A stretch of DNA of 64,000 nt from Rubrivivax albus (lineage in GTDB: Bacteria > Pseudomonadota > Gammaproteobacteria > Burkholderiales > Burkholderiaceae_C), in NCBI RefSeq assembly GCF_004016515.1, contig NZ_SACT01000001.1:1054001-1118000 (forward strand), in the 5' to 3' direction. The notes below the pieces were generated by a model. The model made no database searches and was not told where the DNA came from. It worked only from the letters and a program-made list of their open reading frames with translations. Both the position numbers and the translations under genes were made by a program. Below, in pieces: positions 7,477 through 13,431 of this stretch (positions are counted from its first letter, which is position 1; the number at the start of each line of letters is the position of its first letter).

Positions 7477-8901
7477 ATGTCCCTGCTGAGCCCCTCCCGC
7501 AAAGACGGCGCCGAACGCGACGACGAGGTGGCGCGCCTGCGCGTGCCGCCGCACTCCAACGAGGCCGAGCAGAGCGTGCTCGGCGGCCTGCTGCTGGACA
7601 ACCTGGCCTGGGACCGCGCGGCGGACCTGCTCACCGAAGGCGACTTCTACCGCCTGGAGCACCGGCTGATCTACGGCGCCATCGGCACGCTGATCGCCGC
7701 CAGCAAGCCAGCCGACGTGATCACCGTCTTCGAGCAGTTGCAGGGCCTGGGCAAGGGCGAGGACGTCGGCGGCCTGGCCTACCTGAACGCGCTGGCGCAG
7801 AGCGTGCCCAGCGCGGCCAACCTGCGTCGCTACGCGGAGATCGTGCGCGAGCGCGCCATCCTGCGCAAGCTGATCGCCACCAGCGACGAGATCGCCACCA
7901 ATGCCTTCAACCCGCAGGGCCGCGCGGTGGCGCAGCTGCTGGACGAGGCCGAGGCGCAGATCCTGCGCATCGGCGAGGAAGGCGCGCGCCAGCGCCAGGG
8001 TTTCCAGGCCATCGACAAGCTGGCCGTGGCGCTGATCGACCGCGTGATGGAACTGGCCGAGAACGGCGCCGAGGACGTCACCGGCGTGCGCAGCGGCTTC
8101 TTCGACCTCGACCGCAACATGGCCGGTCTGCAGAAGGGCGACCTGATCGTGCTCGCCGCGCGCCCGTCGATGGGCAAGACCGCGTTCGCGCTGAACATCG
8201 CCGAGAACGTGGCCGTGCACGAGGGCCTGCCGGTGCTGGTGTTCTCGATGGAAATGGGCGCGTCGCAGTTGGCGCTGCGTCTGGTGGGCTCGCTGGGCCG
8301 CATCGACCAGACCCACCTGCGAACCGGCAAGCTGGGCGACGACGAGTGGGGCCGCCTGGCCGAGGCGGTGGACAAGCTCAAGCAGGCGCAGCTCTTCATC
8401 GACGAGACGCCGGGCCTGAACGTGGCCGAGCTGCGTGCGCGGGCGCGGCGCATGGCGCGCCAGTTCGGCGGCACGCTGGGCCTGATCGTCATCGACTACC
8501 TACAGCTGATGAGCGGCAGCGGCGGCAGCGACGAGAACCGCGCCACCGAGCTGGGCGAGATCTCGCGGGGCCTCAAGGGCCTGGCCAAGGAACTGCAGTG
8601 CCCGGTGATCGCGCTGTCGCAGCTCAACCGCAGCGTCGAGACCCGCACCGACAAGCGGCCGATGATGAGCGACCTGCGCGAGTCCGGCGCCATCGAGCAG
8701 GACGCCGACGTCATCATGTTCATCTACCGCGACGACTACTACAACAAGATGGATGGCCCGAACCCGAGCAAGGAGCCGGGGGTGTCGGAGATCATCATCG
8801 CCAAGCAGCGCAACGGCCCTGTGGGCACCACCAAGCTCACCTTCCTGAAGCCGCTGACGCGCTTCGAGAACATGGCGCCGGAGTACGGCAACGAGTATTG
8901 A
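7477..8901 (+). CDS. dnaB: Replicative DNA helicase DnaB
   Basis: A 474-residue hexameric 5'-3' helicase of the replication fork. The N-terminal DnaB domain begins at about residue 25 (P-P-H-S-N-E-A-E-Q-S-V-L-G). The RecA-like motor has Walker A RPSMGKT (Lys234), Walker B LIVIDYLQL (Asp340), and the C-terminal S-Q-L-N-R-S-V-E and S-G-A-I-E-Q-D-A-D-V motifs. No intein interrupts it. The length is standard. It follows rplI as in many beta- and gammaproteobacteria but is separated by a terminator, so it needs its own promoter in 7424-7476, where I see no clear consensus. Confidence 0.98.
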   Translation: MSLLSPSRKDGAERDDEVARLRVPPHSNEAEQSVLGGLLLDNLAWDRAADLLTEGDFYRLEHRLIYGAIGTLIAASKPADVITVFEQLQGLGKGEDVGGLAYLNALAQSVPSAANLRRYAEIVRERAILRKLIATSDEIATNAFNPQGRAVAQLLDEAEAQILRIGEEGARQRQGFQAIDKLAVALIDRVMELAENGAEDVTGVRSGFFDLDRNMAGLQKGDLIVLAARPSMGKTAFALNIAENVAVHEGLPVLVFSMEMGASQLALRLVGSLGRIDQTHLRTGKLGDDEWGRLAEAVDKLKQAQLFIDETPGLNVAELRARARRMARQFGGTLGLIVIDYLQLMSGSGGSDENRATELGEISRGLKGLAKELQCPVIALSQLNRSVETRTDKRPMMSDLRESGAIEQDADVIMFIYRDDYYNKMDGPNPSKEPGVSEIIIAKQRNGPVGTTKLTFLKPLTRFENMAPEYGNEY

Positions 8902-8912
8902 CGACAACACGG

Positions 8913-8932
8913 TACTGTATGAACATACAGCA
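8913..8932 (+). promoter_or_regulatory. LexA (SOS) box before the radical SAM gene
   Basis: TACTGTATGAACATACAGCA matches the E. coli LexA operator consensus TACTGTATATATATACAGTA at 16 of 20 positions, with the invariant CTGT-N8-ACAG core at 8915-8930. It fills the 30-base gap between the dnaB stop and the start codon of the next gene, exactly where a repressor would block that gene's transcription. Confidence 0.85.
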
Positions 8933-10032
8933 TGTCCGTGTCATCCGATCTCCCGCCGCCGGCGCCGCTGAAGGGGCGCGGCACGGTCTGGGCGCTGGAA
9001 CATCGCTTCAGCACCACGCAGGCCGACGCTTTCGATGACGGCTGGGGCACGCTGGATCAAGCGGCCGGCGAGGAGCACCTGCCGCCCGACACGCAGATCA
9101 TCGAGGAACAGGCGCGCAGCATCCTGGCGGCCAACGACTCGCCGGACATCGGCTTCGACCTGTCCATCAACCCCTACCGCGGCTGCGAGCACGGCTGCAT
9201 CTACTGCTACGCGCGGCCCACGCACAGCTACCTCAACCTGTCGCCGGGGCTGGACTTCGAGACGCGCATCGTCGCCAAGGTCAATGCTGCCGACTGCCTG
9301 CGCGATGCGCTGAACGCCCGCGACTACCGGCCGCGGTCACTGAACATCGGTTCGGCCACGGACGCCTACCAGCCGGCTGAACGCCGGCTGCGCATCACGC
9401 GCGGCGTCATCGAGGTGCTGGCCGAGGCGCGGCACCCGTTCTCGCTGATCACCAAGTCGGCCGGCGTCGAGCGTGACCTCGACCTGATCGCCCCGATGGC
9501 GGCGCAGCGGCAGGCGGCGGTCTATGTGTCGATCACCACGCTGGACGGTGAACTGGCGCGTCGCCTGGAACCGCGTGCAGCTTCGCCGGTGCGCCGGTTG
9601 CGCACGCTGCGCACACTGGCCGACGCCGGCGTGCCGGTGGGGGTGAGCGTGTCGCCGGTGATCCCGTTCCTCAACGAACCGGAACTCGAGCGCATCCTGG
9701 AGGCGGCCAGAGACGCCGGCGCCACGTCGGCCTTCAGCATCGTGCTGCGCCTGCCCTGGGAGGTGAGCCCGCTGTTCCAGCACTGGCTGCAGCAGCACGT
9801 GCCCGACCGCGCGGCGCGCATCATGGCGCGGCTGCGCGAGATGCGCGGCGGGCGCGACAACGACGCGCGCTTCGGCAGCCGCATGACCGGCGAGGGCGTC
9901 TGGGCGCAGCTGCTGCGCCAGCGCTTCCATAAGGCCTGCCACAGGCTTGGGCTCAACCAGGCGAAGGCGCCTCTCGACGCCGGGCCGTTCAGGCCGCCGG
10001 CGAGACAGCCGGGGCAGGCGAGTCTGTTCTGA
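8932..10032 (+). CDS. PA0069-family radical SAM protein (SplB-like)
   Basis: A 366-residue radical SAM enzyme. The 4Fe-4S motif is CEHGCIYC (Cys at about 83, 87 and 90) in the context N-P-Y-R-G-C, typical of the PA0069/Rv2578c group related to spore photoproduct lyase. The substrate is unknown. The LexA box immediately upstream places it in the SOS response, consistent with a role in DNA damage repair (inference); I recall that P. aeruginosa PA0069 is also LexA-controlled. ATG 8932 overlaps the last base of the box and has no Shine-Dalgarno sequence, so the true start may be GTG 8938 or the mRNA may be nearly leaderless. The 3' end overlaps the convergent regulator gene by 44 bases. Confidence 0.88.
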   Translation: MSVSSDLPPPAPLKGRGTVWALEHRFSTTQADAFDDGWGTLDQAAGEEHLPPDTQIIEEQARSILAANDSPDIGFDLSINPYRGCEHGCIYCYARPTHSYLNLSPGLDFETRIVAKVNAADCLRDALNARDYRPRSLNIGSATDAYQPAERRLRITRGVIEVLAEARHPFSLITKSAGVERDLDLIAPMAAQRQAAVYVSITTLDGELARRLEPRAASPVRRLRTLRTLADAGVPVGVSVSPVIPFLNEPELERILEAARDAGATSAFSIVLRLPWEVSPLFQHWLQQHVPDRAARIMARLREMRGGRDNDARFGSRMTGEGVWAQLLRQRFHKACHRLGLNQAKAPLDAGPFRPPARQPGQASLF

Positions 10033-11698
10033 CGGCCTGGCCCGCTGCGGGGTTGGTGTTGCCACTGGCGTTCCCGGTGCGCAGCACCAGAGCGCCGGCC
10101 GCGCGCTCGCCCTGACCCAGGCGCGGCGCCGCCCAGGAAAGCGCGTATTGGCGTCGCATGTCTTCGATCGATGCGTCCCAGGTCTCCGGGTTTTCGATCT
10201 TCTGCCGATAGCGCTGCAATGTCGCTGCAGCGGTGTCGACCAGCTTGGCGTTCAACGTGCTTCGGGCAGCCTCCATCAGGCCTTCCAGGGCTCGCGACGC
10301 ATGCCCCTCCAGCACGTGGTTCATGGCCTTTTCCGACAGCGAGAGCACGTCGGCATGGCCCTGCTCCACAAGCTCCAGAAACGGCGGATGCCGCGCCACA
10401 GCCCGTGTGAGCAACTCCCCCACACTTCGCGAGGTGGAGAAGCGCCGGGCCAGTTCAAGCACGCAGGTGCCGACATCCTCGATGCACGCGCCAGCCTGAG
10501 TGAGTTCGGCCAACAGGGCCAGCAGATTGCAGGCGGCCTCGATGTCCAATGTGGCGTCGCTGCGTTGTGCGGTGAGTGTCTCGGCCAGTTCGACAGCCCG
10601 TGTCTTCTGCCCGGCGGCCATGCGTTCGAGGCTGGTCACCAGAATGACGAATCGCTCGAGCCGCTCGTTCTCCCCGCCGCGCTTGGCGAAGTGCTCCAGG
10701 TTCTCCTTGCAGCGCTGCAGTCCCTTGGCGTCCTTCAGCCCAAAGCGGGCCAGCCCCAGCACGACCAGGGACTGCATGTCGAACATCTTCGAGTTCACGC
10801 CCAGCAGCACGGCGCGGTCCAGGAGTTTCTCCGCCTCCTGCAGGTCACCGTTGTAGTAGGCCAGCAGCCCCTGCTTCTGCAGCCTGGGTATGGACCCGGG
10901 TGTCAACGAGGCCGCTTTGCGATAGGTCTCCAGCGCCTCGTCGAAGCGGCCCTGCTCGACCTGTACCCGCCCCATCACGTCCCAGGCGTCGGCGTAGTCG
11001 GGCTCGCTGGACAGCAGGGTCTCGAGTGACTTGCGGGCCTGATTCAACTGCCCGGCATCCACCTGGGTACGGGCGACCCCAAGCCTCGCCCACGGAACGG
11101 CACGGGATTCGATGATGGCCTCGTAGAGCTTGGCCGCAATGTCGTGACGGGACAGGCGAAGCAGCAGTTCTGCACCCAGCCGGGCGGCGTAAAGCCAGTA
11201 CTCGCCCTGTTCGCGATACCGCTTGAGGCAAAGTGCCGCAGCCAGTTCGAGTTCGCCGGCTTCCATCGCCGCGAAGATCTGGGACAGTGACCGCTTGCGG
11301 TGGCGGGCATGGCGAAGTCGCTCACACAGCGTCGACGCCGCGTACGGCTTGAGCAAGTAGGAGTCGAGCGCCGATTCCGCCGCCTCGGCCACATGTTCGT
11401 AGCGCGCTTCGCCGGTGACCATCACGAACACCGTGTCGTAGGGCAGCAGGTTGGCTCGCCTCAGGTCTTCCAGGAGTTCCTGCCCGGTCATGTCCTCGCC
11501 GGGAAACACCTGCTCGCAGACCACGATGTCGAAACGCTGGGTTTCCAGTCGCCGTCGACCGTCCGACAGTCGCGGTGCCTGCACGATGTTGGGCACGCCG
11601 AGATCCCGCAACTGCGCGGTGATGATGCTGCGCGAGGACGGGTTGCCGTCGATGACCAGAGCATGGGCTCGGTCGATGTCCTTGTCCAGCATCATCAT
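9989..11698 (-). CDS. Degenerate receiver-TPR protein (paralogue 1)
   Basis: A 569-residue protein with an N-terminal CheY-like receiver (about residues 10-130) and a long TPR/helical region (about 150-540), ending in a low-complexity Ala/Pro tail. In the receiver the phospho-accepting Asp is replaced by Glu (Glu62 in I-V-V-C-E-Q-V-F-P), while the acidic-pocket Asp17, Thr95 and the switch Lys117 (Y-L-L-K-P-Y) are kept. It is therefore probably not phosphorylated in the usual way and may be locked in an active-like state. No output DNA-binding domain exists, so TPR-mediated protein contacts are the likely output. Its start overlaps the stop of the upstream paralogue by four bases (ATGA). Function unknown. 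Confidence 0.85.
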   Translation of the reverse strand: MMMLDKDIDRAHALVIDGNPSSRSIITAQLRDLGVPNIVQAPRLSDGRRRLETQRFDIVVCEQVFPGEDMTGQELLEDLRRANLLPYDTVFVMVTGEARYEHVAEAAESALDSYLLKPYAASTLCERLRHARHRKRSLSQIFAAMEAGELELAAALCLKRYREQGEYWLYAARLGAELLLRLSRHDIAAKLYEAIIESRAVPWARLGVARTQVDAGQLNQARKSLETLLSSEPDYADAWDVMGRVQVEQGRFDEALETYRKAASLTPGSIPRLQKQGLLAYYNGDLQEAEKLLDRAVLLGVNSKMFDMQSLVVLGLARFGLKDAKGLQRCKENLEHFAKRGGENERLERFVILVTSLERMAAGQKTRAVELAETLTAQRSDATLDIEAACNLLALLAELTQAGACIEDVGTCVLELARRFSTSRSVGELLTRAVARHPPFLELVEQGHADVLSLSEKAMNHVLEGHASRALEGLMEAARSTLNAKLVDTAAATLQRYRQKIENPETWDASIEDMRRQYALSWAAPRLGQGERAAGALVLRTGNASGNTNPAAGQAVRTDSPAPAVSPAA

Positions 11699-13431
11699 GC
11701 GGACGGCCTCCGTCGCGTCACCGCCGGCTGGCCTCTCAGGGCCAGCGCACCCGGCGGGCGCCGGGCCCGCATCACGCCGGCCAGGTGGGTCACCGGACGG
11801 CAGTAGCGCTCCTGCAACTGGCTGATCAGGTCCAGCATCGCGTCAGCGTCCTCCAGAGCCGCACGATGCCGGACGGCGATCATGGCTGCCATGTCGATGA
11901 GCTTGGCGTTCAAGGTCGCCCGGCCGCGCTCGAGCAGCAGCTTGATCGCCTGCCGGGGCCGCTGGCGTGCCGACATCGCCACTGCGCGTTCGGCGATGCC
12001 GTGGATCTCGGCGTGGGCCGTCAGGATGATTTCCGCCGTCTGCGGGTCGCGGCCTGCAGCCATGACCAGGATGTCGCTGACCACACGCGACACGCAGCAC
12101 CGCCGCGCCAGGTCCTGCCGCAGGCTGGTGAGTTCGGGTTCATGCCGAAGATCTGCAGGCATCCGGGCTGCCAGCGCCAGCAGGAGCGTAGCTGCCTCGA
12201 CGTCGAAACTGTCGCTTCGGTGCTCGCCCGCCAGCCGCTGGAAGCCTGCTCTGGCCGCGGCCATGTCGCCGTTGCCCAGGGCCTCCAACGTCAGCGGCAC
12301 CAGGGTCATCCGACGCAGCCGAGCCGAACCCGGGTGCCTGCGCTGGAACGCCTGCAACTGTTCCAGTGCCCGGCTCACCGCCTTGGCCTGGCCCAGATCG
12401 TGCCCGCAGAGGGCCAGCAGCGCCAGGGTCAGGGCGTCGAAGAGCCTGGACTCGAGGCCCAGGGCCACCACACGCTCGAGGCAGCGCAGGGCTTCCTCGC
12501 TCGCGCCAGCATAAAAGGCCAGCGTGCCGTTGTGCTGCTGCCGGAGCAGGCAGCCCGGCGTGAGTCGCGATGCCGTGCGGTAGGTCTCCAGTGCGCCGGC
12601 GAACTCGCCCTGGTCGACCTGCAGCATGCCCAGCACATCGTAGGCGTCGGCATAGTCGGGTGAGTCCTTGACCAGCGTCTCGATCTCGCGGCGTGCCAGG
12701 GCCGTCTCGCCGCGCGCCGCACGGGCGCGTGACAATGCCAACCGGGCCCACCCCATCGTCGAGTCCTCTGCCAGGCTCTGGAGCAGATCCACTGCCTCGT
12801 CAAGCCGTTCAGCCTGCAGCAGCAGTTCTGCCGCCAGCCGGGCGCACAGGCGCCAGTAGCTGCCCTTGGCGGTCACGCGGGCCATGGCCAGCTCGATCGC
12901 ATGATCCGTACGGCCAGCCTCCACCGCCGCATACACATCGGCCAGGGCCTGTTTGCGGCGGCGTGCCTCGTGTACGCGGTCGGACAAGTTCTGGGTGCTG
13001 TAGGGGCGAAGCAGGTAGCCGTCAACCACCGATTCCGCGGCTTCGCGCACAGCGCCGTAATCGGCCTCCGCGGTCACCATGATGAACGCCGTACCGTAGG
13101 GCAGCAGCCGCTCGCGGCGCAGTTCTTCCAGCAGGTCGTGCCCCGACTCGTCCGGGTCGGGGAAACTGGCCTCGCAGAAGACGAAATCGTAGGCGCCGCG
13201 CTCGAGCAGTACCCGGGCGTCGGACGGGCAGGCCGCGTGCTTCACCATGCCCACGCCGATGTCACGCAACTGTGCCATCAGCAGGCTGCGCGAGCCTGGT
13301 TGCCCGTCAACGACGAGGGCTCGCGTTGCCGAGATATCGCGCTGGACCGGTGCAGCCTGTGCTGGCGGCGCCTTGGCAGGGGCTACCAGCTCGATGCTGA
13401 AGTCGTAGGACAGGGCGGAAGGCGATTCCAT
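11695..13431 (-). CDS. Degenerate receiver-TPR protein (paralogue 2)
   Basis: A 578-residue paralogue of the downstream gene with the same layout: a Pro/Ala-rich N-terminal tail (about 1-30), a receiver (about 35-155) and TPRs. It has diverged further: the acceptor Asp is again Glu (Glu87 in F-V-F-C-E-A-S-F-P) and the switch Lys is Arg (Arg142 in Y-L-L-R-P-Y), whereas Thr120 remains. The conserved C-terminal block around R-A-T-L-N-A-K-L-I-D-M-A-A is shared by both copies. The pair is translationally coupled and probably forms a complex. No nearby histidine kinase of matching type is seen. No gene name is known to me. Confidence 0.84.
   Translation of the reverse strand: MESPSALSYDFSIELVAPAKAPPAQAAPVQRDISATRALVVDGQPGSRSLLMAQLRDIGVGMVKHAACPSDARVLLERGAYDFVFCEASFPDPDESGHDLLEELRRERLLPYGTAFIMVTAEADYGAVREAAESVVDGYLLRPYSTQNLSDRVHEARRRKQALADVYAAVEAGRTDHAIELAMARVTAKGSYWRLCARLAAELLLQAERLDEAVDLLQSLAEDSTMGWARLALSRARAARGETALARREIETLVKDSPDYADAYDVLGMLQVDQGEFAGALETYRTASRLTPGCLLRQQHNGTLAFYAGASEEALRCLERVVALGLESRLFDALTLALLALCGHDLGQAKAVSRALEQLQAFQRRHPGSARLRRMTLVPLTLEALGNGDMAAARAGFQRLAGEHRSDSFDVEAATLLLALAARMPADLRHEPELTSLRQDLARRCCVSRVVSDILVMAAGRDPQTAEIILTAHAEIHGIAERAVAMSARQRPRQAIKLLLERGRATLNAKLIDMAAMIAVRHRAALEDADAMLDLISQLQERYCRPVTHLAGVMRARRPPGALALRGQPAVTRRRPSA

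Follow-up and report, generated by a model that had tools for sequence, protein, structure and literature searches.

In Rubrivivax albus, the gene for a PA0069-family radical SAM protein belongs, in our judgement quite probably, to the LexA (SOS) regulon. Its transcription would be blocked by an operator merged with the start codon, its message would be leaderless, and its product, with the fold of spore photoproduct lyase (SPL), would act chemically on DNA damage. This reading starts from the LexA box itself, its conservation before orthologues and the other LexA motifs that stand in its place in other lineages, together with the SPL-like fold and the absence of a catalytic cysteine. The gene lies in a window of 64,000 nucleotides (contig NZ_SACT01000001.1, positions 1,054,001 to 1,118,000), and the features discussed are collected in Table 1.

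Table 1. Features around the radical SAM gene, in window coordinates.
Feature	Position	Strand	Remarks
dnaB, replicative DNA helicase	7477..8901	+	ORF; NCBIfam TIGR00665 556 bits, cut-off 385
Candidate -35 element TTGACG	8898..8903	+	17 bases before box core; inferred from sequence
LexA operator (SOS box, predicted) TACTGTATGAACATACAGCA	8913..8932	.	Core CTGT-N8-ACAG at 8915-8930; kept before orthologues
ATG start codon	8932..8934	+	First base common to the 20-bp box; 1 nt past box core
PA0069-family radical SAM protein, 366 aa	8932..10032	+	NF033668 461 bits, curated cut-off 360; Pfam PF04055
CEHGCIYC codons (C85, C89, C92), radical SAM cluster motif	9184..9207	+	Three Cys invariant in 43/43 aligned orthologues
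S141 codon, aligned with H-donor C140 of SPL	9352..9354	+	Aligned by motif

A first-pass annotation of this DNA had described a near-consensus LexA box, TACTGTATGAACATACAGCA at 8913-8932, that lies in the gap between dnaB and the radical SAM gene and reaches the ATG. Both points hold. The core CTGT-N8-ACAG is intact, and 16 of the 20 bases agree with TACTGTATATATATACAGTA, which we take to be the E. coli LexA consensus and used for scoring. The box consists of 19 bases of the 30-base gap and the A of the ATG; read directly from the window, the stretch around it is ...GAGTATTGACGACAACACGGTACTGTATGAACATACAGCATGTCC... The core occurs once in the window, and one core per 64 kb is by itself unsurprising, because 0.63 are expected and 43 of 100 shuffles contain at least one. 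Genome-wide there are 16 exact CTGT-N8-ACAG sites versus 9 for a reversed control pattern, and the form CTGTAT-N4-ATACAG is found among these 16 only in the box at 8913-8932.

The same motif is found at other damage-response genes of this genome. Four genes, those of ruvB, dnaE2, imuA and an integron integrase, have an exact core at the gene start or immediately ahead of it (the dnaE2 and integrase pieces fall slightly short of the model cut-offs, the former being cut by the stretch taken and the latter short). These four are known SOS targets in other bacteria. The lexA gene, about 4 kb beyond the window end, has CTGGATGAAAATACAG and CTGGATACCTTCACAG upstream, and recA has CTGTACAGGCATCCAG; the boxes of both genes keep 7 of the 8 core bases. 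Its occurrence at ruvB, dnaE2, imuA and the integrase gene, with near matches at lexA and recA, marks CTGT-N8-ACAG as this genome's LexA operator. Proteins were scanned at seven of the 15 other exact sites, and no SOS gene could be tied to one of these seven (L019) or to the remaining eight. Because of these untied sites and the control count, a good part of the 16 exact cores may be chance matches.

Several of these sites have features of their own. The exact core at ruvB (L009, G000:C33, locus positions 1999-2014) includes the ruvB ATG (CTGT-ATG...), which makes ruvB a further SOS gene in R. albus with merged operator and start codon. The core at the integrase start (L015, G000:C66, about position 300384) belongs to a fragment of an integron close to the end of a contig; the integrase has 190 residues that cover residues 1-171 of a 337-residue model and is thus shortened, and an ORF for a qacE-like small transporter, named from reading the sequence, lies on the opposite side of the core. 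Two more exact cores (L011 and L012, both G000:C55), one before a cytosine-5 DNA methyltransferase gene and one at the gene for a DUF2188 protein, mark possible further SOS genes.

The first-pass annotation had also suggested that upstream regions of homologues be aligned for the same box. About 350 bases upstream of the match were examined in the best 80 of 588 relatives. The exact core is present in 52 of these 80, and 51 of the 52 share at least 13 of the 20 consensus bases; 7 of the 8 core bases are found in 11 loci and fewer in 17. Among random segments of the same loci, 1 of 1403 contained the exact core, and none had 13/20 as well. Five of the 17 low-core loci bear the LexA motif of another lineage. 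AGAACG-N2-CGTTCT palindromes precede the gene at L079 (Gallionellaceae; AGAACGATCGTTCT) and L081 (Nitrosomonadales; AGAACGTTCGTTCT), and a GAACG..CGTTC motif was reportedly described in a 2015 paper for betaproteobacteria of this sort. L097, L098 and the alphaproteobacterial L101 carry GTTC-N7-GTTC, given as the alphaproteobacterial LexA motif in the available parts of PMC3323433 and PMC8565304. Neither 7 of the 8 core bases nor another recognised LexA motif was found in 12 of the 80, which include the best-scoring relative, L023. All six Pseudomonas/Stutzerimonas loci of this set (L087, L088, L091, L093, L094 and L102) have the exact core.

A second set was drawn from a sample of 397 genomes of the phylum, of which 205 have an NF033668 member above the cut-off. 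Leaving out the window's own genome gives 204 loci; 197 were read by motif search and six by coordinates, and the last, L305, was excluded as a broken copy. In the 197-locus reading, about 400 bases upstream, the exact CTGT-N8-ACAG is present in 45 of the 70 loci of the window's own class. A further four have one mismatch, two have TTAGTAATAATACTAA-like palindromes and one has an AGAACG-type palindrome; no recognised LexA motif was found in 18, for example L172, L175, L198, L218, L219 and L232. The loci of other classes have the exact GTTC-N7-GTTC in 117 of 127 cases and a one-mismatch form in 6, with no recognised motif in 4. Control segments, which come from the same loci and may contain other real sites, show the exact CTGT-N8-ACAG in 6 and the exact GTTC-N7-GTTC in 15 of 1559. 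With one mismatch allowed these counts rise to 105 and 368, and one-mismatch matches therefore count for little. The six coordinate-read loci all have the exact motif (2/2 own class, 4/4 other classes), which brings the totals to 47/72 and 121/131. Within the window's own family the core is exact in 10 of 13 loci and has one mismatch in 3.

The conservation of the box, compared with controls, argues strongly for the LexA control that had been predicted for the radical SAM gene, and the proposed conservation across classes is equally well borne out, Pseudomonas included. The LexA motif of the host lies in the promoter region, and the site is conserved before orthologues. Since most relatives examined carry such a site, the gene very probably takes part in the DNA-damage response. 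The first-pass annotation also suggested that PA0069 itself belongs to the LexA regulon of P. aeruginosa; a literature search pairing PA0069 with LexA found no match. An unlisted LexA-type motif may be hidden among the motif-less loci of the own class, because TTAGTAATAATACTAA-like palindromes occur at L164 and L188, which are of the same family as L172. AGTACG or AGAACG-N2-CGTTCT palindromes precede the gene in L195 (family f9, of the window's order) as well as in L079 and L081, and so represent another LexA-type motif within the class of the window. In L305 (G290:C7, with G290:C143) the family copy is split over two contigs and has an internal stop, being either decayed or misassembled.

The protein carries the CxxxCxxC cluster motif of the PA0069 family. 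The second-best NCBIfam model, for the Rv2578c family radical SAM protein (NF038135), scores 222 bits, far under its curated 430-bit cut-off. Gene neighbours vary by lineage, as judged in 170 loci with a rough ORF caller and unscanned proteins: one cluster of 33 loci has an RNase HII-like protein after the gene, and an Lrp/AsnC-like protein precedes it in 13 loci and dnaB in 4, all named from reading the sequences. The search for an operon partner as a clue to function was dropped because the neighbours are lineage-specific, and no ImuB-C-type neighbour stood out in these rough calls. No conclusion was drawn on a link with ImuA, since its model gives matches in 393 of 397 genomes but exceeds the cut-off in 80. 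In the window, the upstream neighbour dnaB is outside the SOS unit; on the minus strand at 9989-13431, two similar long consecutive ORFs, response-regulator/TPR-like by reading, point at the radical SAM gene.

The box and the start codon stand in a fixed relation in the window's clade. An in-frame ATG follows ACAG by 1-2 nt in the window and in 13/13 loci L024-L036 (with one core mismatch in L028 and L029; L032 carries the label of a Myxococcales MAG). In the wider set of 112 boxed loci, with at most one core mismatch and at least 13/20, the ATG is within 3 bases of the box in 21. The only other in-frame start codon ahead of the conserved core in the window is a GTG at 8938. In L026, L028, L030, L032 and L033 the abutting ATG is the sole ATG, GTG or TTG before the conserved core and there is an in-frame stop within the box, so that a start elsewhere is impossible unless it is an unusual one. 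Shine-Dalgarno runs of at least 4 bases are found in 0/21 abutting loci versus 33/64 loci with a 10-30 base gap; taken alone, this absence is weak evidence, because such runs arise by chance in 299 of 2000 background 13-mers.

Across the clade's 14 loci, a -35-like signal reaches a modest maximum 18 bases ahead of the core (mean 2.64 of 6 versus a background of 1.33, sd 0.40), and in 18 Burkholderia-type loci a maximum lies 19 bases ahead of it; no such peak is found there in 25 loci of Pseudomonas/Stutzerimonas and family f16. With the peak at this position, the -10 would fall within the box in the clade, and transcription would begin at the ATG. The operator at 8913-8932 presumably overlaps the -10 region, and TTGACG of the window fits a transcript start near 8933, but the -10 there is poor. 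On these sequence signals, we lean towards a leaderless radical SAM message that would be blocked by LexA. It would resemble the leaderless lexA mRNA of Mycobacterium tuberculosis, described in the available part of PMC2897130, in that an SOS gene has coinciding starts of transcription and translation; the difference is that the M. tuberculosis case was reported from experiment, whereas the present one is deduced and concerns another gene.

Two other accounts of the site have to be weighed. It is hardly credible that the box arose by chance or acts on a different gene: a window of this size is expected to hold 0.63 such matches, and the box alone would be insufficient against chance, but conservation relative to the controls rules it out. 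As for another gene, dnaB is upstream and ends before the box, and because the neighbours differ between lineages while the box stays, the box belongs to the radical SAM gene. The other account, which we consider unlikely though far from negligible, accepts the box and has LexA act as a roadblock to a promoter upstream of it, with an mRNA leader that includes the box and is translated without a Shine-Dalgarno sequence. In its favour, the promoter geometry of the window is poor, the best -10-like hexamer, TATGAA, being 14 bases from TTGACG, and a generic promoter scan found no promoter. It sits badly with the -35-like peak at -18 in the clade, the TATA-like sequence in the box and the constant 1-2 nt between core and ATG.

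The nature of the product was addressed by comparison with SPL, to which the first-pass annotation had likened it. In fold the resemblance holds, but the protein lacks the cysteine by which SPL catalysis is defined. Structural comparison assigns the SPL fold to the protein, and the top match is a DNA-lesion enzyme, ahead by four Z units; identity to SPL (PDB 4FHC and mutants) is 16%. In SPL the radical relay is carried by the H-donor Cys and the Y98/Y99 residues, according to the available text of PMC3742179 and PMC5368176. The H-donor column (C140 Gt/C141 Bs) holds S, T, V, A, I, G or M, never C, in 199/199 readable loci out of 210, as aligned by motif and spacing rather than by superposed coordinates, and Cys in 0/43 aligned orthologues. 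Since the fold is present and the catalytic cysteine missing, a repair enzyme is only plausible. By sequence, phmmer against the PDB gave nothing up to E 1, and an hhalign comparison between the profile and a single SPL chain gave a probability of 15% (E 0.0017, 69 columns).

It is improbable that the protein is a true SPL repairing 5-thyminyl-5,6-dihydrothymine, the function suggested by the published name splB, and the missing cysteine is the ground on which we hold it so. The family is without an H-donor Cys at either known position, for columns 62-84, which cover the Clostridium-type position (C74 in the Clostridium enzyme), are also Cys-free in 43/43. A fourth invariant Cys is absent from the alignment of 43, the nearest being C336 in 26. 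The equivalent of the relay tyrosine (Y98 Gt/Y99 Bs) is mostly F (141/199; Y in 58/199), although the window protein has Y93 there. The family profile retrieved SkfB and chance-level matches from the PDB and no SPL up to E 10. The hosts, moreover, are not known to form spores. A product that is made under a genuine LexA box and is not a repair enzyme, modifying a nucleotide, RNA or protein during SOS, is a more serious candidate than a true SPL and nonetheless a doubtful one, since an enzyme acting on a DNA lesion leads the structural matches by four Z units and the family keeps its LexA link through changes of motif.

The regulation of the gene is an expected case of a known kind, in print for relatives. 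In the available part of PMC3323433 (2012), LexA control of 'splB' (COG1533) was proposed from motif searches in alpha- and betaproteobacteria, with Burkholderia, Ralstonia/Cupriavidus and Variovorax in the species set, and the trait was reported as not observed in gammaproteobacteria; here, by contrast, exact cores precede the gene in 6/6 Pseudomonas/Stutzerimonas loci. Other accessible excerpts assign splB, or else a radical SAM protein, to the SOS networks of Bacteroidetes (PMC8565304) and of Gram-positives and Balneolaeota (PMC7739468), and list vnz_31145 of Streptomyces venezuelae in the LexA regulon from RNA-seq and ChIP-seq (PMC9380542). These systems, whose genes are possible members of NF033668, share with the present one a radical SAM gene under the LexA/SOS-repressor motif of the lineage. 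In PMC3765255 (in excerpt), SplB-like radical SAM genes adjoin ImuB-C genes; that case is alike in that an SOS link was predicted from gene neighbourhood, and differs in that an ImuB-C-type neighbour is not evident near the family in the loci examined. A 'DNA repair photolyase SplB', possibly a member of the family, is among the P. fluorescens genes raised by a tea polyphenol in the portion of PMC5435343 at hand. PA0069 is not named in the accessible part of the review PMC13114513, a search joining radical SAM, cisplatin and mutant fitness gave no match, and the literature searched yielded neither a reaction for the PA0069 family nor measurements of binding, induction or substrate for the window's clade.

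What is added here is the extension to Pseudomonas, the layout at the start codon and the finding that the cysteine is missing. An operator placed on the ATG is not seen in the excerpts of PMC3323433, PMC8565304, PMC7739468 and PMC9380542; neither it nor the missing cysteine was met in the literature searched, parts of papers for the most part, which is no proof of their being unpublished.

The gene would work as follows. LexA bound at 8913-8932 would block transcription of the radical SAM gene; upon DNA damage, RecA-driven cleavage of LexA would free the site and the enzyme would be made. In this clade, operator, -10 region and start codon appear to be packed into about 20 bases, and transcription probably starts at or within 1-2 bases of the ATG, thus giving a leaderless mRNA. 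The SPL-fold product most likely uses 5'-deoxyadenosyl-radical chemistry on damaged DNA or nucleotides. Without the H-returning cysteine of SPL it probably catalyses another reaction, in which SAM would be consumed and not regenerated.

Of the 397 genomes sampled from the phylum, 205 have the gene, mostly behind the LexA motif of the lineage, and the name under which it seemingly goes in SOS papers derives from a relative with a catalytic cysteine that the family lacks. The vague 'photolyase' label can thus be replaced by testable questions, namely which lesion is acted on and whether SAM is consumed, and an operator lying on the start codon makes it simple to test how the SOS response controls a leaderless mRNA. 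As a tentative proposal, which we put forward as a possibility rather than an expectation, the PA0069 family may be a separate SOS-inducible direct-repair enzyme of the SPL fold that reverses or alters a DNA lesion without a Cys H donor and with SAM as a consumed co-substrate, made in the window's clade from a leaderless message with the LexA operator as promoter. If so, an unrecognised direct-repair activity would have been kept by roughly half the genomes sampled.
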